From: Actinomycetota bacterium | GTDB lineage: Bacteria; Actinomycetota; Rubrobacteria; Rubrobacterales; Rubrobacteraceae | DNA length: 33,575 nt | Direction: 5' to 3' | NCBI GenBank assembly: GCA_902812425.1 | Contig: CADDZK010000004.1 | Coordinates: 1 to 33,575, forward strand | Shown here: in pieces, positions 1 to 33,575 of the stretch | Position numbering within the stretch: position 1 is the stretch's first letter | Layout of the letters: each line of letters starts with the position of its first letter | Position numbers and translations under genes: made by a program | The notes under the pieces: model-generated | Database searches by the model: none | What the model was told of the DNA's origin: nothing | Seen by the model: only the letters and a program-made list of their open reading frames with translations

Positions 1-392
1 TCGGGGTCAACGGGAAGGAGGCAGGCGGTGTCCTCTCCGGGGACGTTCGAGGCGTCCACACCGGCGTTGGCGCAGACGAAGCCGTGGTGCGTCTCCGAGA
101 TTATGATGCCGCGGTCCATGCGTACGATGCGCCGGCTCTCTCTCAGGACGACCTCGATCTGGCGTGGGTCCTTCTCGTAGCGCGTCGCGTAGCCCTTCGC
201 GAGTGCGGAGGGCGCGACCGTGCGCAGATCGACCAGCCGGCCCTCGGCCTTGCTGACGATCTTGTGCGTCACGACGAGGATGTCGCCGGGGTGCAGGTCT
301 CCTGCCACAGCGCGGGAGATCATACGCGCAAGGTCGTCGCCGGGACGGACCTCCGGGAACCCTTCGACCCCGAGTATTTCCAAAGCCTTCAC
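1..392 (-). CDS. cofE: Coenzyme F420-0:L-glutamate ligase (CofE), 3' end cut by window edge
   Basis: CofE (FbiB N-terminal domain in mycobacteria) adds L-glutamate to F420-0 using GTP in the cytoplasm. About 130 codons are visible from the start. The N-terminus reads VKALEILGVEGFPEVRPGDD, then a segment DILVVTHKIVSKAEGR near residues 39-54, and later ETHHGFVCANAGVD, both typical of the family. The GTG start at 392 overlaps the TGA of cofC in a GTGA. The gene follows cofD and cofC on the same strand, which fixes the pathway. The C-terminus lies outside the window, so it cannot be seen whether an FbiB-type nitroreductase domain is fused to it. Confidence 0.9.
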   Translation of the reverse strand, partial: MKALEILGVEGFPEVRPGDDLARMISRAVAGDLHPGDILVVTHKIVSKAEGRLVDLRTVAPSALAKGYATRYEKDPRQIEVVLRESRRIVRMDRGIIISETHHGFVCANAGVDASNVPGEDTACLLPVDP

Positions 393-991
393 GGGCGCGC
401 CGCTCCCCTAAGACGCGCCAGGTCACCCGCCGTGTCGAGGTAGAAGGCGAGGTGGGGCCGCTCGCAGACGTGTACGTTGAGGTCGCGCCTGCGGGCCGCC
501 CCGAGGTGTGCCTCGAAGCTATCGGGGCCGAACGCGAAGGGCAACACGTCGGGAGGCCTGACGAGGAGCGCGTTCGTGCCCGAACGCGCCCCGTCGGGGG
601 AGATCACCACAGAAGGCCCCTCGTCCGCCTCCTCCAGGACAGCCAGTACGTCCCCGGCCTCGAGCAGCGGCAGGTCAGCGGGGAGCACGAGCAGCGTCGA
701 GGCGCCGCGGTCGAGCGCCCTGCGACGTCCTTCTTCGAGGGCGGGATTAAGCCCGCGACTCTCCTGTACGAGGGGCGCGGCGCCGCGCCTCTGCGCCTCT
801 TCGAGGACTATTCTGTCGGGGCTCACCACACAGACGTCTTCGACCCCCGCGTCCCTGACGGCTGCCACCACGCGGCCCATCATGTACAGGGTGAGACCGG
901 CCCTGGCGCCGGGGTTGAGAACCGGAGCGAGGCGACTCTTGGTCCCCTGCAGGTCCTTCACAGGCACGACCGCGGAGATACCCTCGCTCAA
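389..991 (-). CDS. cofC: 2-phospho-L-lactate / phosphoenolpyruvate guanylyltransferase (CofC/FbiD)
   Basis: Makes the GTP-activated 2-phospholactate or PEP intermediate that CofD transfers to the deazaflavin Fo in F420 synthesis. The 200-residue protein has a nucleotidyltransferase start (AVVPVKDLQGTKSRLAPVL, residues 7-25), the metal-site stretch LVLPADLPLLE in the middle, and SGTNALLVRP and FGPDSFEAHL further on, all family hallmarks. The length is normal. It starts at TTG (991), overlapping the cofD stop in a TTGA, and ends overlapping the cofE GTG. Whether the substrate is 2-phospholactate or PEP cannot be read from sequence; known actinobacterial FbiD uses PEP. Confidence 0.93.
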   Translation of the reverse strand: MSEGISAVVPVKDLQGTKSRLAPVLNPGARAGLTLYMMGRVVAAVRDAGVEDVCVVSPDRIVLEEAQRRGAAPLVQESRGLNPALEEGRRRALDRGASTLLVLPADLPLLEAGDVLAVLEEADEGPSVVISPDGARSGTNALLVRPPDVLPFAFGPDSFEAHLGAARRRDLNVHVCERPHLAFYLDTAGDLARLRGAARP

Positions 992-1929
992 CGCGCCACC
1001 ATCCCCGCGCCGAACTCCAGCGTCTCGGAGGCGAGGCGCGCCCTGTCTTCGGCGTCGCGCATCACAGATTCCGTCACGAGGACGCGCATCCCAAGATCCT
1101 CGATGCCCGCCCGCTCCTCCTCATCTATGCGGTCGACGACCATCCCGTCCAGAAGGCCGACGTACATCTTGGCTACTCCCGTGGCCGAGACCTCGTGGCC
1201 AAGCGAGGAGAGCATCCTGTCTGCCGGTCCTTTGAGAGCCCGGCCGCCGACGATCGGGCTGACGGCCACCTTCGGGGCGGATGACGAAGCCAGGGCTTCA
1301 CGTATGCCGGGCACGGCCAGGATAGGACCCACGCTCACGACGGGGTTCGAAGGACAGAAGACGAGCGTGTCGGCTCTGGAGATCGCAGCGAGTACTGCCC
1401 CCGTCGGACGGGTGCTCTCGATGCCACGCAGCTCGACGCCGAGCACCTCGTCCCTCTGCGCGCGGCGCACGAAGTACTCCTGGAACTCGAGGCGGCCTTC
1501 CGGGGTCTCGAGCACCGTCGAGACAGGGTCGTCGCTCATCGGAAGTATGGTGCTCTCGACGCCCAAAGAGCCGGAGAGTGCGGCCGTGACCTCGGTCAAT
1601 GTCTCTGCGGAACGCAGGCGTGACGTTCTCAATATGTGCGTGGCGAGGTCCCTGTCTCCGAGCTTGAACCAGGTCTCCTCGCCGTAACGTTCGAGCATGC
1701 TCAGAGCGTCGAAAGATTCGCCGGCGAGGCCCCAACCGGTCTCGGGGTTGGAGATTCCAGCAAGCGTGTACATGACCGTGTCGAGATCGGGGCAGATGTG
1801 CAGGCCCCAGAGGTCGAAGTCATCGGCGGTATTGACGACCACCGTGAGATCCCCCGGCGGCAGCACGTCCTGCAAGCCGGCAGCCAGCTTCGCGCCGCCG
1901 ACCCCGCCAGCGAACGCGCAGACCTTCAC
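988..1929 (-). CDS. cofD: 2-phospho-L-lactate transferase (CofD/FbiA)
   Basis: Transfers the phospholactyl (or phosphoenolpyruvyl) group from the CofC product to Fo, giving F420-0 or its dehydro form. The 313-residue protein opens with [17 protein letters not shown] (residues 3-19), the CofD glycine-rich N-terminus, followed by [20 protein letters not shown] and MYTLAG. The segment [18 protein letters not shown] and [14 protein letters not shown] are also diagnostic. The start is GTG at 1929, with GGAGG six bases upstream. The Nudix gene ends 27 bases upstream, so the two are probably co-transcribed. Length is as expected for the family. Confidence 0.95.
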
Positions 1930-8152: not shown

Positions 8153-8488
8153 CTACTTGTTGACGACCTCGCAGTTGGCCGCGATGGCGTCCTCGTTGTC
8201 CGGGTCGGCGAAGACCTTATCGCGTCCCGGGCCGCAGTCGATGCGGTCCCTCTCGCCGTCGCGTGCCTTGACGACGTCCCGGCCCGCTCCGCCGAACAGC
8301 GCGTCCTTGTCGCCCCGTCCCACTATGGTGTCGGCGCCCCCGAGCCCGCGGATCACATCGTCCTGACGGGTACCGAACAGGGTGTTGGGGCCGTCTGTGC
8401 CAACGATTGTCTTCGCCACGGCCACCCCGGCGAACAGCGCCATCATCAGCCCCATGACCGCGAGCAAGATGGCCAACCTTCTCGTCAT
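8153..8488 (-). CDS. Small secreted RTX-type calcium-binding repeat protein
   Basis: A 111-residue protein with an N-terminal signal peptide: MTRR, then a hydrophobic stretch to AVA at about residue 25. The rest is a run of glycine/aspartate nonapeptide-like repeats (GLGGADTIV, GRGDKDALF, GGAGRDVVK, and further GPGRD units), which in RTX proteins form a calcium-bound beta-roll. Two Cys (DCGPG and ANCEVV) near the C-terminus could form a disulphide outside the membrane. No catalytic domain is attached and the protein is far shorter than RTX toxins, so a structural or ion-binding role outside the cell is likelier. AAGGAGGT lies upstream of the ATG. A palindromic site is centred about 102 bases upstream of the start. 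Confidence 0.82.
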   Translation of the reverse strand: MTRRLAILLAVMGLMMALFAGVAVAKTIVGTDGPNTLFGTRQDDVIRGLGGADTIVGRGDKDALFGGAGRDVVKARDGERDRIDCGPGRDKVFADPDNEDAIAANCEVVNK

Positions 8489-8584
8489 TCGCTTACCTCC
8501 TTCAGTGTGCGGTCTCTCATGACGCCGCCAATGATGGACTCCCGGGGCGCCTTCGCCATCGTCAGGATTGTCGATCTTTCTCTA

Positions 8585-8596
8585 TATGAATTCGTA
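8585..8596. promoter_or_regulatory. Palindromic site 1, candidate operator upstream of RTX gene
   Basis: TATGAATTCGTA differs by one base from the perfect palindrome TACGAATTCGTA and is flanked by TA on both sides. The same element recurs at 9040-9051. It is centred about 102 bases upstream of the RTX gene start. A dyad of this size would suit a dimeric LuxR-type HTH protein such as the regulator encoded at 9082-9747; that link is inference. Confidence 0.45.
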
Positions 8597-8609
8597 TAGG
8601 GCGGGTACT

Positions 8610-8951
8610 TTATTCGAGCCCGAGCGGACGCGTGGCATCGTCCAGGATTGTGAGGAGGTCGCTGAAGTCCGGGCCGCCGAGAATGTAGCGTCTCCCGTCG
8701 ATGCCGCCGACAACCGCCCCTGAAGTGCCGCCTGGGTAGAGCTCTACCCAGGCGGAGGCGTCGCGCTCTACGAGCGCCGTCAGCACGCTGCATACCACGA
8801 GACGGGGCAGAAGGCGCAGGAACTCTCCATCCAGGTCTTCCGGCGCCGCGGTGAAGACCTCGACGTCGGGCCTAAGCTCCCTGAGGGCTGCGGAGATCAC
8901 TTCGCGGTATATGGTCGGCTCGTTGGCCACCAGAACCCGCACGCTCTTCAT
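8610..8951 (-). CDS. Receiver-like protein without phosphoacceptor Asp, paralog of 30656-31036
   Basis: A 113-residue protein with the start of a response regulator fold: VRVLVANEPTIYREVISAAL (residues 4-23) and LRPDVEVFTAAPEDL. The strand where a receiver has its phosphoacceptor reads RLVVCSVLTA, with Cys-Ser in place of Asp, and no acidic pair follows the first strand. The C-terminal half (SAWVELYPGG, then GGIDGRRYILGGPDFSDLLTILD) is not receiver-like. The protein at 30656-31036 shares LRPDxxVxTAxPE, AWxEL and a LLxIL ending. The start is ATG at 8951 with a G-rich stretch upstream. It lies directly after the NarL-type regulator gene. I do not recognise a named family; a phosphorylation-independent signalling partner is a guess. 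Confidence 0.75.
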   Translation of the reverse strand: MKSVRVLVANEPTIYREVISAALRELRPDVEVFTAAPEDLDGEFLRLLPRLVVCSVLTALVERDASAWVELYPGGTSGAVVGGIDGRRYILGGPDFSDLLTILDDATRPLGLE

Positions 8952-9039
8952 CCCGGCCCCCCGAGAATTCTACGACCCCATTCTATGCACGACTCTCCCA
9001 TGAGCCACTATTGTGGGGGCCGCAACTCCGGACTGCCTC

Positions 9040-9051
9040 TACGAATTTGTA
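9040..9051. promoter_or_regulatory. Palindromic site 2, candidate operator upstream of receiver-like gene
   Basis: TACGAATTTGTA, one mismatch from TACGAATTCGTA, is embedded in a 15-base block (CTATACRAATTCRTA on the minus strand) shared with the site at 8585-8596. It is centred about 95 bases upstream of the start of the receiver-like gene at 8951, nearly the same distance as for site 1. Confidence 0.45.
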
Positions 9052-9081
9052 TAGCTTGAAACCGATTCCCGTCCGAGGGTC

Positions 9082-9747
9082 TCAGGTTATCTTCACGAGA
9101 TCGTGGCGCACGGCGAAGATGAGCGCCTGGAGCCTGGAGGCGACGCCCAGCTTGGCGAGGATGTTCGTGACGTGGGAATGCACCGTGCCGGTGCCGACGT
9201 GGAGCCGCTGGGAGATCTCTCTGTCGCTCAGGCCTTCGGCGAGGGCCTGAAGGACTTCGAGTTCCCTCGGCGTCAGCTGCTGAATGGCGAGCCTGGCCTC
9301 GTGGTCCCGCTCGCGCTCGCGTACGACGAGGCGCAGCGCCTCTATTATCTCCTGCTGGGAGAGCAGCACCTCGCCTGCGTGCAGCCTGCGGACGGCCCGA
9401 ACCAACTCCTCCGTGCGCGTCGACTTGTGCATGACGCCCGTCGCACCGGCCTCTATCGCCCTGGCGATGAGCTTCTGCTCGGAGACGGCGCTCAGGACCA
9501 GCGCCGCAGCCCGTGGCCTGCGGTCGTGCAGGAGTCTTATGAAGTCCGTCCCCGGGCCGTCGGGAAGGTCGAGGTCGACTATCGCGACGTCCACAACGAC
9601 CTTGTCTTCCAGGATACTTCGCGCCTCCGAGAGGGTGCCGGCCTGGGCCACGACGACGAGGTCGGGTTCGCGTTGCAGCATAAAGGCGAGCGGCTCCCTG
9701 AAGGTCGTGTGATCGTCGACGATCATGACCCCGATCTCGCCGTTCAC
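9082..9747 (-). CDS. NarL/FixJ-type response regulator
   Basis: A 221-residue transcription factor. The receiver domain covers roughly residues 1-125, with the acidic pair in VMIVDDH, the phosphoacceptor Asp58 in VAIVDLDLPDG, Ser in LVLSAVSE and the conserved Lys in GVMHKSTR. The LuxR-type HTH fills the C-terminus: QQLTPRELEVLQALAEGLSD, then REISQRLHVGTGTVHSHVTN. The GTG start at 9747 overlaps the TGA of the histidine kinase in a GTGA, so kinase and regulator are translationally coupled and very probably cognate. Likely targets are the neighbouring receiver-like and RTX genes with their shared palindrome; this is inference. Confidence 0.95.
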   Translation of the reverse strand: MNGEIGVMIVDDHTTFREPLAFMLQREPDLVVVAQAGTLSEARSILEDKVVVDVAIVDLDLPDGPGTDFIRLLHDRRPRAAALVLSAVSEQKLIARAIEAGATGVMHKSTRTEELVRAVRRLHAGEVLLSQQEIIEALRLVVRERERDHEARLAIQQLTPRELEVLQALAEGLSDREISQRLHVGTGTVHSHVTNILAKLGVASRLQALIFAVRHDLVKIT

Positions 9748-11357
9748 GGCACCACCTCGAGGGCGAACCCGAATACGGATCCCACGCCCTGCTGCGTCTC
9801 GACCGTCAGCTCGGAGCCGTGGCTGCGAACGATGCGTCTGCTCAGGTAGAGACCGAGGCCGACGCCGGAGACCCTTCGCCCCTCCTGGTCGCGCCCCCTG
9901 CCGAACTTCTCGAAGATCCTGGCGAGGTCTTCGGGGTGGATGCCAGGACCGTGGTCTGTGACCTCTATCTTGATCCGCCGTCCTTCACGCCGGGCCCCGA
10001 TCTCGACGGGAGCACCCTCAGCCGAATACTTGGCCGCATTAGAGAGCAAATTACGGACGACCTGGCTGATTCGCTTCGGGTCCGCCAGCACCCGCTCTGC
10101 CCCATCGAGGCCGTCTTGGAGGCTGGTGTATACGGGATGATCTCCTGGAAGAGCCCTCGCGTACGCTTCGGCGTCGGCCACGATGTCCTTCAAGGGCAAG
10201 GGACGGGACTCGACCTCGAAATCTCCGCGCTCGACGGCTGCGGCTGCCCGAACGTCCCTGACGAGGACGCTCAGGGCATCGAGCTCACCCTCCATGGTCG
10301 CCGTGGCGTACCCACGAATATCGGGCTCCGCCCCTTCTGTCGACATCATCTCGTTGAGCTTTCGTATGGCCGCTATCGGCCCGTCCAACTCGTGGGCGAC
10401 CATGGCGCTGAAATCGGCCCTCAGGACGTTGAGCTCGTCCAGGCGTCGCACGCGGTTCCGCTCGCTGGCAAGGAGCGCCGCGCGCTCCTGGGCAACCCGT
10501 CGCAACTCCGCGACACCACCGACACTGACCACCACGGCGAACGCCAGGCTGAGCGCATCCGCGCTCGTCAACACCCTGCCGCCGTAGGCGGAAGGCCACA
10601 CGTACTCGTGCAGGAGCGAGCCGCCAAGGAGCACCATCGCGAAGAGCAGCCAGCCCCGCAGAAGCCCCTTGTGATTCTGCCAGAAGGCTCCGGCCACGGC
10701 CGTCATCGCGAGGCCGAGCGGCAGCGCCGAGAGCACCCAGTGCCAGGGGGTGAGCCAGCCCAGGGGCGTACCGAGCTTCACCGTCTTCTCAGGGTCCTCG
10801 ACGAGGGCCAGGGCCGGCATCCACTCCTCCGCGTGCAGGAACTCGAAGAGGATCACGTACCCGAGGAGCAGGGAGGCGGGGATGATCGTAGCAGCCCAAA
10901 CCAGGGTTCGGGGCAAGCGTTGGGGGAACAGCCCGATCGCAAACAGCGCGCAGGCGAAGGTCTCGGTGACGAACACCTCGTAGAGGGACTCGTTGAGCTC
11001 GGGGGGGTCGCCCTGGATCAGCGGCTCAAGATAACCGAAGATCAGGTGTCCCAGTCCGAGGACGGCGAACCCACACGCCACCCAGCGTGCGCGCCACCCG
11101 ACCTCCTCAACGAGGAAGAGGCCGAGCACCAGCGCGGCGAAGAGACGCGCCACCGCAGAGGCCGCCTCTTCGCTACCCATCAGCTTGTCCGAGACGAGGA
11201 TGGCGAAGCCCTCACCCCCGGCCGAAAGGTTCACGAGCGCCCATGCCACCATACCGATGGCCAGCGCGATGGCGATCAGCGCGGTCTTGCGACCCCTCAT
11301 GAAGCCCGCACCGGCTTCAGCAGCACGGCCTTCGTGTTGGTTGTGCTTACGCTTCAC
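9744..11357 (-). CDS. Membrane sensor histidine kinase with multi-pass N-terminal domain
   Basis: A 537-residue kinase from GTG 11357. About eight membrane segments (7TM/MASE-like, residues about 22-290), including IALAIGMVAWALVNL, ARLFAALVLGLFLVE and ALSLAFAVVVSVGGV, form the sensor. The catalytic part has an H-box FSAMVAHELDGPIAAIRKL, in which the usual HELRTP reads HELDGP, then the N-box NLLSNAAKYS, G1 DHGPGI, F-box FEKFGRG and G2 GVGLGLYLS. All ATP-lid elements are present. The ATG at 11300 is an alternative start; neither has a ribosome binding site, but TATCTT six bases before 11357 suits a leaderless start. The signal sensed is unknown. It is coupled to the NarL-type regulator that follows. 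Confidence 0.93.
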   Translation of the reverse strand: MKRKHNQHEGRAAEAGAGFMRGRKTALIAIALAIGMVAWALVNLSAGGEGFAILVSDKLMGSEEAASAVARLFAALVLGLFLVEEVGWRARWVACGFAVLGLGHLIFGYLEPLIQGDPPELNESLYEVFVTETFACALFAIGLFPQRLPRTLVWAATIIPASLLLGYVILFEFLHAEEWMPALALVEDPEKTVKLGTPLGWLTPWHWVLSALPLGLAMTAVAGAFWQNHKGLLRGWLLFAMVLLGGSLLHEYVWPSAYGGRVLTSADALSLAFAVVVSVGGVAELRRVAQERAALLASERNRVRRLDELNVLRADFSAMVAHELDGPIAAIRKLNEMMSTEGAEPDIRGYATATMEGELDALSVLVRDVRAAAAVERGDFEVESRPLPLKDIVADAEAYARALPGDHPVYTSLQDGLDGAERVLADPKRISQVVRNLLSNAAKYSAEGAPVEIGARREGRRIKIEVTDHGPGIHPEDLARIFEKFGRGRDQEGRRVSGVGLGLYLSRRIVRSHGSELTVETQQGVGSVFGFALEVVP

Positions 11358-11363
11358 CTCTAT

Positions 11364-11369
11364 AAGATA
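11364..11369 (-). promoter_or_regulatory. Candidate -10 element of a leaderless histidine kinase transcript
   Basis: TATCTT on the minus strand ends 6 bases before the GTG at 11357, within a local AT-rich patch (TAGATTATCTTATAGAG). No ribosome binding site precedes the start. If it is wrong, the kinase begins at ATG 11300. Confidence 0.35.
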
Positions 11370-11548
11370 ATCTACTACCCGTCTCCTCGGCAGGGATGGC
11401 TCTTCAAAGTCCTCGTGTTGCTTTGTACGCCGCCGCCGCGTCGTTCGGTTCACCCGACGCCCCGTACGAACGATACCAACGACTCTCTGACTCGAAGATC
11501 GAGATGCTTTGTGAGAGGGTGATCCCAGAGCACCTCTGGCACCGCGTT

Positions 11549-30655: not shown

Positions 30656-31036
30656 TCAGAGATCACTCGTTCGAGTAAGCTGCGCGACCTCTTCGATGAT
30701 CGCGAGCAACTTATCTAGCGTAGGATTGGCAACCTCCGAGTATTCTCCATCCACGTTTACTTTCGTCATCTGGGCAGGATTCAGAGAGAGTTCGATCCAA
30801 GCCGGTACGCCCTCCATGTCCTCGTTCTTGCACCGGCTGCCGATGACAAGATCTGGGCCGAAGCGTTTCGCCACCCCGCTTATCTTCTCGGGCTTAGCGG
30901 TCACCACGTCTGTGTCCGGGCGGAGTATCCTGACAGCCGCCGCGAGTGTGCCCTGGTAGGCGCGGAATTCTTGCTCGAAGGCGATTATTATTTTGATCTC
31001 GGCCGTTCTTTCTTTGTTTGCAATACTTGTACTCAC
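30656..31036 (-). CDS. Receiver-like protein without phosphoacceptor Asp, paralog of 8610-8951
   Basis: A 126-residue protein. After a short N-terminus, IKIIIAFEQEFRAYQGTLAA, then VRILRPDTDVVTAKPEKISG and FGPDLVIGSRCKNEDMEGVP follow the same plan as the protein at 8610-8951: LRPDxxVxTAxPE, PxLVxxS, AWxEL (here AWIELSLNP) and an ending LDKLLAIIEEV. Ser replaces the Asp expected after the third strand of a receiver, and the acidic pair is absent. The GTG at 31036 has no ribosome binding site but has TAAGTT six bases upstream. It lies inside the AT-richer stretch beside decayed signalling genes. Function unknown. Confidence 0.7.
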   Translation of the reverse strand: MSTSIANKERTAEIKIIIAFEQEFRAYQGTLAAAVRILRPDTDVVTAKPEKISGVAKRFGPDLVIGSRCKNEDMEGVPAWIELSLNPAQMTKVNVDGEYSEVANPTLDKLLAIIEEVAQLTRTSDL

Positions 31037-31231: not shown

Positions 31232-31330
31232 ATGCGCAACGCGCTCATGGTAGCCAACGATCCGACAGTGTGCCGGAGTACGCCGCCTCGACCCACTGGA
31301 CACTATCCTGCAAACACCTCGGTAGCATGA
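31232..31330 (+). pseudogene. Fragment of a third receiver-like paralog
   Basis: The 32-codon frame starts MRNALMVANDPTVCRS, which lines up with MKSVRVLVANEPTIYR at the N-terminus of the protein at 8610-8951 (VAN, acid, PT, V/I, x, R shared). After that the similarity is lost and a stop follows, so only the first strand and part of the first helix remain. GAGGTG lies upstream of the ATG. The match is short and could be chance, but the family is already present twice in the window and the neighbouring genes are clearly decayed. Confidence 0.4.
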
Positions 31331-31697
31331 CGATGCCCCTGATGTCTGAAGCCGGGGCTATGATACGTCTGTTGCTCGTAGCGTGCCGCCAAATTCCGAA
31401 AGTTACCGCTCCAGGCAAACACGCCTGTCTGTGTGCCAGAGTGCACTATCACTGCAATCAAGAGGCAGTAGGCACTTCCAGCGCTGCATCTGGTGACTTA
31501 TGGGAGGCTCGTGCGTCCAAAGATACTTCATTTGGGTGATGCAGTCGGCGACGGAGTCGTCAATTATACGTGTTGGTAGCTTGCGGAAGCCATACGATGA
31601 AGAGAGAATGAGCATGAAGAGAAGCGCCTCGGAACGGACGGTCGAGGTAACAGATGCGCTTCTGCCAATGCGGAAGAGTGCGAAGGCACAGATTAGC
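31331..31697. other. AT-richer decayed stretch, no intact gene
   Basis: Between the receiver-like fragment and the histidine kinase remnant I find no frame with recognisable protein sequence. The longest frames on both strands here overlap the remnant and lack motifs. Parts may be the lost upstream half of the kinase whose end is at 31697-31819, but I could not recover it by eye. Confidence 0.4.
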
Positions 31698-31819
31698 TCG
31701 CCAGCGTGCGACATATGGTCGACCACTACGCAGGACGAATGTGCGCGGAAGGTCGTGTGGGGAAAGGCGCCACCTTCTACTTCTCGCTTCCGCGATGCGC
31801 GGAGAACAGGGATAGATGA
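31697..31819 (+). pseudogene. 3' end of a sensor histidine kinase, remnant
   Basis: In this frame, directly after an in-frame TAG at 31694, the sequence reads VRHMVDHYAGRMCAEGRVGK, then GATFYFSLPR. This is the last part of a histidine kinase ATPase domain: the helix after the G2 box and the final 'GKGATFYFxLP' strand. No catalytic part precedes it in frame, so the rest is lost or scrambled. The stop overlaps the start of the decayed receiver gene that follows, which matches the usual kinase-then-Rcp1 order. Confidence 0.65.
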
Positions 31820-32212
31820 TAGCGATACTATTTTACTGGTAGAAGACAACGAAAACGATGTCCAGTTGATCCTCGCTGCGCCTGACGGACAGGAGGCTCT
31901 GGATTATCTCTACAGCTGGGCGGTGCGAGGGAGAACCCCAAGATGATGCTATTCGATATCAAACTACCCAAAGTAGACGGATTGGAAATCCCACAATGGA
32001 TCAAGCCCGATCCAAACCCGAAGGCGAGGCCGGTCGTGACGCTCACGTCTTCTCGCGAGGGGCGAGACCTGTTGAGAAGCTACAACTTCGGCACGAACGC
32101 CTATGTAGTAAAGCCGATGAGTTTCCGATTCTTTACCGAGACCGTCGAAAAAGTCGGGCTCTTCTGGGGAGCCCTCAATAAGCCACCTAGCACCGCAGAG
32201 CGGGAATCATGA
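31812..32212 (+). pseudogene. Frameshifted Rcp1-type response regulator
   Basis: The first frame reads DDSDTILLVEDNENDVQLIL, then PDGQEALDYLY, and stops at 31946. A second frame, shifted near 31910-31920, continues ARENPKMMLFDIKLPKVDGL (phosphoacceptor Asp kept), VVTLTSSREGRDLLRSYNFG, TNAYVVKPMSF and VGLFWGALNKPP. Together they make an Rcp1-type single-domain receiver with about 12 residues missing after LIL and one frameshift. No ATG/GTG/TTG fits the N-terminus; the ATA at 31812 stands where a start would be expected. The final TGA overlaps the ATG of the intact gene downstream as ATGA. Sequencing error is possible for the frameshift but not for the deletion. Confidence 0.75.
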
Positions 32213-33575
32213 AAGTCTTGCCCGGCCCTGAAGGGCAAGACCGCAATAAATCGGGTGTGCTACGCATCCTACTCCTCGAAGATAGCGCATTGGACGCAGA
32301 ACTCATCGGAGCTCAACTGTCGGACGGCGGGATCGTCTGCGAGCTAACACGGGTGCAGGACCGCAGCGCTTTCGTCGCAGCGCTGGAGGAAGGAGGTGCC
32401 GCTCTCATCCTAGCGAACTACAGCCTACCGGGCTTCGATGGCCTCTCGGCGCTACGGCTGGCCAGAAAGACCCGTCCCAGGGTACCGTTTATCTTCGTCT
32501 CAAGCACACTCGGTGAAGAGGTGGCGATCGAAACCCTGAAGAGCGGAGCCACGGATTATGTGCTGAAGGATAGATTGGAACGTCTCCTGCCGGCGATCCG
32601 AAGGGCTATGCGTGAGGCCGAGGAGAGTAGCGAGCGCGAGCGTGCTGAGGAAGCGCTGCGAAGAAGCGAAGATGAATACCGAGCCATGTTCGAGCTCGCC
32701 AGTGTGGGAAAGGCACAAACCGACCTTGCCACGGGACGATTCTTGCGCGTCAACCGAAAACTGTGCCGGATCACCGGCTACTCCGAAGACGAGCTGCTAA
32801 GTATGACGTTCGCGGAACTCGTGCACCCCGATGACCGCGAAGAGGACCTCGCACGCTTTCGAAGAATGACGCGTGGTGAGACCGCCGAGTACACGGTCGA
32901 GGAGCGCTACGTCTGTAAGGACCGGGAGGTTATATGGGTAAGCGTTAACGCTGCGCTCATCCGAAATGCATCCGGCCAGCCATGGGGCGCGGTCGCCACG
33001 ATCCTGGACATCACGAAGCGCAAGCGAACCGAGGAAGAGCTCGCCCGGTTGGCATCCTTCCCAACTCTCAACCCGACTCCAATCGTGGAGACTGCTGTCG
33101 CCGGCGAACCAACTTTTATCAGTCCCGCAGCCCGGGAACGGTTTCCGGACCTGGTCACGCTGGGTCAACGCCATCCGATCCTCGCGGACTTGGTGTCGAT
33201 TGAACATGACATAAGAAAATCTGGTGGCCAGCCAATCAGCAGCGAGGTGTGGATCGACGACGTTCTCTATCAGCGTCTAATCTACGCGGTTCCGGGGAGC
33301 GATCTCTTGCGTCTCTACGCCATCGATGTAACCGAGCGCCGCCGGGTGGAAGAGGCCCTCAAGAGGAGCGAAGAGAGGTTCCGCTCTCTCGTACGGTACG
33401 CCACTGACATAATAATGATCCTCGACGCCGAAGGCGTCATACTCTACGAAAGCCCTGCGGTAGAGCGCGTACTTGGTTTTCGCCCCGATGAGAGGTTTGG
33501 TACCGACTCCTTTGCTTACGTACACCCGGACGACCTCGAAACGGTAAGGAGCAGGTTCGCAGAGCTCAGGGAGGT
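32209..33575 (+). CDS. Receiver-PAS-PAS-PAS signalling protein, runs off the right edge
   Basis: 455 codons are visible. A receiver domain comes first (residues about 18-135): VLRILLLEDSALDAELIGAQ has the acidic pair, FIFVSSTLGEE the Ser/Thr and DYVLKDRL the Lys, but the phosphoacceptor position reads ILANYSLPGFDG, with Asn70 (codon 32416-32418) where SDYSLP is usual. PAS 1 (about 160-270) includes GYSEDELLSMTFAELVHPDD and ends in DITKRKR. A second PAS-like region runs to AIDVTERRRVEEAL, and a third starts RSEERFRSLVRYATDIIMIL, then ends at the window edge. A histidine kinase or GGDEF output is likely beyond it. The ATG overlaps the stop of the decayed receiver. Confidence 0.88.
   Translation, partial: MKVLPGPEGQDRNKSGVLRILLLEDSALDAELIGAQLSDGGIVCELTRVQDRSAFVAALEEGGAALILANYSLPGFDGLSALRLARKTRPRVPFIFVSSTLGEEVAIETLKSGATDYVLKDRLERLLPAIRRAMREAEESSERERAEEALRRSEDEYRAMFELASVGKAQTDLATGRFLRVNRKLCRITGYSEDELLSMTFAELVHPDDREEDLARFRRMTRGETAEYTVEERYVCKDREVIWVSVNAALIRNASGQPWGAVATILDITKRKRTEEELARLASFPTLNPTPIVETAVAGEPTFISPAARERFPDLVTLGQRHPILADLVSIEHDIRKSGGQPISSEVWIDDVLYQRLIYAVPGSDLLRLYAIDVTERRRVEEALKRSEERFRSLVRYATDIIMILDAEGVILYESPAVERVLGFRPDERFGTDSFAYVHPDDLETVRSRFAELRE

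Follow-up and report, generated by a model that had tools for sequence, protein, structure and literature searches.

A family of small proteins partly derived from NarL-type receivers, with an erased phosphorylation site, encoded beside response regulators in Rubrobacteraceae and Chloroflexota

The stretch of DNA analysed here (the window, 33,575 nucleotides of contig CADDZK010000004.1 from a Rubrobacteraceae assembly) carries two small genes whose products resemble response-regulator receivers and have serine at the position of the phospho-acceptor aspartate. The question raised by this locus is what such a protein may do beside two-component genes. A preliminary description, made from the sequence alone, suggested a lineage-specific signalling partner that has lost phosphorylation. 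The reading that we prefer, with a probability of about one half, is that these proteins, whose ancestry lies partly in a NarL-type receiver, belong to response-regulator modules as a dedicated third component and probably bind the neighbouring receiver. The features of the window that are used below are the following:

8610..8951, minus strand: family member 1 (P0001, 113 aa), with a receiver-derived N-terminal half without phospho-acceptor (Ser55) and a rebuilt C-terminal half
8980..8989, minus strand: extended -10-like element TGCATAGAAT, 28 bases before the start codon of P0001, within the 130-base gap between regulator gene and family gene
9082..9747, minus strand: NarL/LuxR-type response regulator with an intact phospho-site (DD, D, S, K), belonging to the regulator clade that precedes family genes
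9744..11453, minus strand: membrane histidine kinase (HisKA and HATPase_c), whose gene shares 4 bases with that of the regulator
30656..31036, minus strand: family member 2 (P0002, 126 aa), of a second clade (2-residue insertion, FEQEFRAY), with the same predicted fold
31943..32212, plus strand: C-terminal portion of what appears to be a broken single-domain receiver, the nearest receiver to member 2 and on the opposite strand
32209..33573, plus strand: receiver-PAS-PAS signalling protein, running off the window

The broken receiver is CheY-like and appears split over two frames at 31500-32212 of the plus strand (ILLVEDNENDVQL... then MMLFDIKLPKVDGLE...); its beta1-alpha1 region is shortened, and either the gene has decayed or the assembly is in error here. 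Between about 30 and 33 kb the G+C content of the window (0.56) is lower than in the remainder. The next gene downstream of member 1 on the same strand (8153-8488, minus) encodes a small protein whose N-terminus is hydrophobic and which carries calcium-binding repeats of the RTX/hemolysin type (PF00353), and three genes at 3-1929 (minus strand), judged by reading alone, resemble those for coenzyme F420 biosynthesis (cofE, cofC and cofD type).

Both open reading frames exist as first described and are true homologues. A single BLASTP comparison gave 30% identity over 107 amino acids (E 6e-13), which is homology over the whole length, and P0001 as query against the whole genome retrieved P0002 at E 1.5e-8 together with further paralogues. 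The shared strings LRPDxxVxTAxPE, PxLVxxS and AWxEL are present in the two proteins, but the ending given as LLxIL holds for only one of them (LLTIL), the other having LLAII. The family had been reported as found twice intact; it is far bigger, as a profile search gave 9 matches in the host genome alone (4.16 Mb in 565 contigs). A fragment at 31232 had also been counted as a third copy. The string MRNALMVANDPT is indeed found there, yet the resemblance of 12 residues is at chance level: the family profile gives it E 5.4, with the register shifted and the score below that of unrelated frames of the window, and the fragment was dropped.

The profile scan of contigs was built on the closer of two family alignments. 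When 397 genomes of the phylum were searched with the family profile, 33 of the 39 Rubrobacteraceae genomes had matches, with up to 17 copies per genome (17 in R. marinus and 12 in R. tropicus, the species names being inferred). Matches were found in five of the remaining 358 genomes, all of them response-regulator receivers and none a family member. The family is not restricted to one lineage as had been thought, since 19 of 150 genomes from one class of Chloroflexota carry 1-3 copies, in the same cassette that is described below. One of the Chloroflexota copies sits on a contig of 984 kb, which argues against contamination. Three Thermomicrobiales/Chloroflexia assemblies (L049, L064 and L065) carry the kinase-regulator-family cassette or family members, which suggests transfer between phyla.

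Family proteins had no match in Pfam or NCBIfam. Among 27 members, Pfam matches up to E 1 included neither Response_reg (PF00072) nor any of the minor pseudo-receiver models PF06490, PF21155, PF21194, PF21695, PF21714 and PF22368, and a sequence search of the PDB gave nothing significant. Annotated plasmid copies are labelled merely as hypothetical protein, and a look through papers on Rubrobacter two-component systems gave nothing on the family, which is unnamed.

Descent from receivers was examined by comparison of profiles. Using hhalign, the family matched NarL-type receivers with a probability of 89% (E 2.3e-6) over beta1-alpha1-beta2-alpha2-beta3, and the more diverse family alignment did so at E 2.6e-6. 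The match stops after beta3 and leaves the receiver's second half uncovered. Within the 397 genomes the profile hit five proteins outside the family, with per-genome E-values between 2e-4 and 1e-3; chance alone should give about 0.4 such hits. All five are receivers, of which four align in that N-terminal region and one along its full length. The F-R-[EQ] at the start of alpha1 in NarL receivers corresponds to Y-R-[ED] in the family. On this sequence evidence the family and the receivers share common descent, for the first half only. A GlnR-type pseudo-receiver was rejected as a relative (hhalign with GlnR_1st, probability 0.4%), and no member of the TadZ-like atypical receiver family (PF21194) was found in the genomes searched or in control genomes.

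In the alignment with receivers, the acidic pair D-D corresponds to N10-E11 of P0001 and the phospho-acceptor aspartate to S55. Both window copies have serine at the acceptor position as had been noted; the acidic pair, described as absent, is not fully gone, as the N-E of copy 1 keeps one acid. Across 94 distinct members the acceptor position holds S in 64, D in 11, N in 10 and G in 6, the acidic pair is usually N-E, and all three acidic positions occur together in a single member. No counterparts of the Thr/Ser and Lys of receivers were found, because the receiver match ends at beta3. The family has a strict signature of its own, N-E-P-R-x-Y-R, R-P, C-S-R, W-[VI]-E-L-Y-P, G and D-L-L, with Y15 in 90 of 93, P28 in 93 of 93 and W68 in 83 of 94 sequences. 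Conservation is strongest at the ends of beta1, beta3 and beta4, which is where the active site is located in receivers, and this means that the site has been rebuilt and not merely lost. Four orthologue pairs gave dN/dS values of 0.22-0.36, i.e. purifying selection.

Structures of both copies were predicted with AlphaFold2 from 27 family sequences, giving pLDDT 94.2 and pTM 0.87 for P0001, and pLDDT 89.9 and pTM 0.83 for P0002. The order of elements is the same in both models, b1 a1 b2 a2 b3 a3(short) b4 b5 b6 aC, where b5-b6 is a hairpin, so that a strand, a beta-hairpin and a C-terminal helix stand where a receiver has alpha4-beta5. The predicted fold is accordingly no canonical (beta-alpha)5 receiver. 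The models and the profile comparison agree with the earlier remark that the C-terminal half is not receiver-like; as to whether the fold is unrelated to receivers, the first half is related and the domain as a whole departs from the canonical fold. Foldseek superposed many receivers over about 50-60 residues, for most of them at about 1.4-3 A. Among the listed hits of P0002 the highest TM-score (0.57) was obtained for PDB 3fkq, described as an NtrC-like two-domain protein, which we take to be a TadZ-like atypical receiver protein. It shares the overall three-layer fold and the absence of a canonical phospho-site with the family, at 16% identity to copy 2 and a Foldseek E-value of 0.025; TadZ is fused to an ATPase.

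Gene order provides the link to signalling. Copy 1 ends a cassette of kinase (9744-11453), NarL regulator (9082-9747) and, after a gap of 130 bases, the family gene. Of 100 listed NarL-type regulators of Rubrobacteraceae, 46 belong to the clade of the window regulator; 17 of these directly adjoin a family gene, 16 of them with the family gene downstream, against 0 of the 54 NarL regulators outside the clade (p 2.6e-7). Regulators that stand without a family gene make up over half of this partner clade. On the regulator tree the presence of a partner is clustered (5 changes, where the shuffled mean is 13.5), and the Chloroflexota regulators nest inside a branch of partner-carrying regulators from Rubrobacter MAGs, as if the cassette travelled whole. 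Kinase, regulator and family gene in this order are the rule in those Chloroflexota loci that have enough flank, and nine loci have two family genes in tandem behind the regulator. The family is thus encoded together with a kinase and a regulator in the manner of an accessory protein, both by linkage and in the Chloroflexota loci. That all copies lie near two-component genes, as stated originally, is true of the two window copies and of about two thirds of the family: a receiver is found within two genes for 63 of 94 members. In two complete genomes the figure is 17 of 29 members, compared with 5 of 102 control genes. The larger sample of linked loci is biased towards P0001-like members.

The family falls into three clades, the forks among which are partly weakly supported. 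Members of clade I lie behind NarL regulators that keep an intact phospho-site. P0002 belongs to clade II (31 rows, support 99), whose members often follow single-domain receivers, some of which are without the Lys or the acidic pair, and have no neighbouring kinase. In clade III the family gene lies tail-to-tail with a NarL regulator that has Gln (MQVQMP) for the phospho-acceptor Asp, in 6 of 6 readable loci (L041, L039, L044, L084, L093 and L081). Within clade II, R. marinus and R. tropicus each have a fusion of receiver and family domain in a single open frame; the two fusions are orthologous, and the acidic pair of their receiver half is altered. Some members are instead preceded on the same strand by genes for PAS-GGDEF-EAL (c-di-GMP) proteins:

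L098:10072-10842, minus strand: receiver-family fusion
L076:5959-6882, minus strand: receiver-family fusion
L052:2266-5580, plus strand: PAS-GGDEF-EAL protein upstream of a family gene
L068:4107-5987, plus strand: PAS-GGDEF-EAL protein upstream of a family gene, with a gap of 13 bases

The receiver is the element that these neighbourhoods share, kinases being typical of clade I only, and from this we infer that a receiver rather than a kinase is the partner. As about a third of the members have no receiver within two genes, other partners, for instance some of the GGDEF-EAL proteins, are possible for them.

The gap between regulator and family gene measures 95-170 bases in most clade I loci, with a median of 142 bases. 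An extended -10-like element (TGCTAGAAT-like) occurs in 9 of 29 such gaps, whereas shuffled gaps gave a mean of 0.27 and a maximum of 3; the pattern was picked by eye after the sequences had been seen, and the loci are related to one another. The element at 8980..8989 is therefore a hint, no more, of a separate promoter for the family gene. A terminator and promoter scan of 8400-9200 gave nothing above chance, and no common 7-mers were found in the gaps above the level of shuffles. The family gene may carry its own promoter, and cotranscription with the regulator is only putative.

The preferred reading can be set out as follows. The family protein would be a small single domain, partly taken from a NarL-type receiver, from which the phosphorylation site was erased and whose output half (alpha4-beta5) gave way to one more strand, a beta-hairpin and a helix at the C-terminus. 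It would be unable to accept phosphate and would serve as a dedicated third component of a regulator module, most likely by binding physically to the receiver domain of the regulator encoded alongside. Binding might then change the lifetime of the phosphorylated regulator, or its dimerisation and the release of its DNA-binding domain, with an effect on signalling that could go in either direction. The original suggestion, a signalling partner no longer open to phosphorylation, has good support from the receiver-derived N-terminal half, the erased site, the purifying selection and the conserved linkage to NarL regulators and kinases, for a family that is expanded in the lineage but not confined to it, and with no copy at 31232.

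Other readings of the same data have to be weighed. The family protein could be the output of the system, its expression being raised by the phosphorylated regulator and a constitutively active pseudo-receiver then acting on targets elsewhere. This we regard as rather unlikely: it is one published model for CmrT in CmrRST (PMC12632262), and it agrees with the -10-like element in the gap and with those members that adjoin GGDEF-EAL proteins and other signalling genes, but the family has neither a DNA-binding nor a catalytic domain, and both the fusions and the pairing with single-domain receivers indicate contact with a receiver. Somewhat less probable still is a ligand-sensing domain, where the old active-site face has become a conserved pocket and the ligand tunes the neighbouring receiver. 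The pocket would be lined by N10-E11-P12-R13, Y15-R16, C54-S55-R56 and W68-x-E70-L-Y72-P73, in agreement with the peak of conservation at the strand ends, the position beside GGDEF-EAL proteins of some members would fit, and the c-di-GMP-binding pseudo-receiver of ShkA is a precedent (PMC7010744). Against this, no homologue has a known ligand, and these residues could also be conserved for folding or for contact with another protein.

The models bring in a further candidate, as the best whole-chain Foldseek E-values of both were for the anticodon-binding domains of histidyl-tRNA synthetases (E about 1e-3; TM 0.44 and 0.51), whose chain runs along a similar path, C-terminal hairpin and helix included. 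The family might then be a relative of this class II synthetase domain, hence RNA-binding, and its receiver likeness would reflect a common Rossmann-like N-terminal half. We find this highly improbable: the TM-scores are near the limit for random folds, the gene context is signalling and not translation, and profile comparison with HGTP_anticodon (PF03129) gave probabilities of 0.1 and 0.6%, compared with 89% for receivers. The low profile scores lead us to read the structural likeness as convergence of the second half, which is an interpretation. The loss of the phospho-site and the high copy number could, lastly, be those of functionless, decaying paralogues of response regulators; the dN/dS values, the signature residues and the same gene order in two phyla refute this for the family as a whole.

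Compared with known systems, the proposed third component resembles NarL/FixJ receivers (PF00072) in the profile and fold of beta1-alpha1-beta2-alpha2-beta3 and in gene neighbourhood, and differs from them by having no Pfam match, by missing the phospho-acceptor, T/S and K, and by its replaced alpha4-beta5 part. With the described pseudo-receivers it has in common a relationship to receivers without the residues for phosphorylation. The six minor types of these (PF06490, PF21155, PF21194, PF21695, PF21714 and PF22368) all keep the (beta-alpha)5 topology, and nearly all pseudo-receivers studied are orphans (PMC12632262), whereas the present family departs from that topology and follows a kinase-regulator pair. 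A precedent for the partner idea is given by the mechanisms discussed for CmrT in CmrRST and for the WhiI/BldM heterodimer (PMC12632262). CmrT of Clostridioides difficile is likewise a receiver relative deficient in phosphorylation, the product of a third gene whose operon also encodes a kinase and a regulator that are otherwise normal; it is described as an OmpR-family regulator, while the family here is a lone domain of 110-130 aa without a DNA-binding domain. The kind of system is not new, as receiver relatives that work without phosphorylation, and proteins accessory to two-component systems, are already known; it is the architecture that is unusual, and the place in the cassette that is unusually consistent.

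How pseudo-receivers switch is an open question (PMC12632262). Nature offers many cassettes of kinase, regulator and pseudo-receiver here, together with fusions to receivers and sister regulators of which some have a partner and others do not, and the action of a pseudo-receiver on the receiver of its neighbour thereby becomes directly testable. Tentatively, the family would be the first type of pseudo-receiver without a (beta-alpha)5 fold, half receiver and half newly built; by direct action on a receiver it would extend ordinary kinase-regulator pairs of two phyla to three components, and in one clade it would have pseudo-receivers as partners, both proteins of such a signalling pair lacking a canonical phospho-acceptor.
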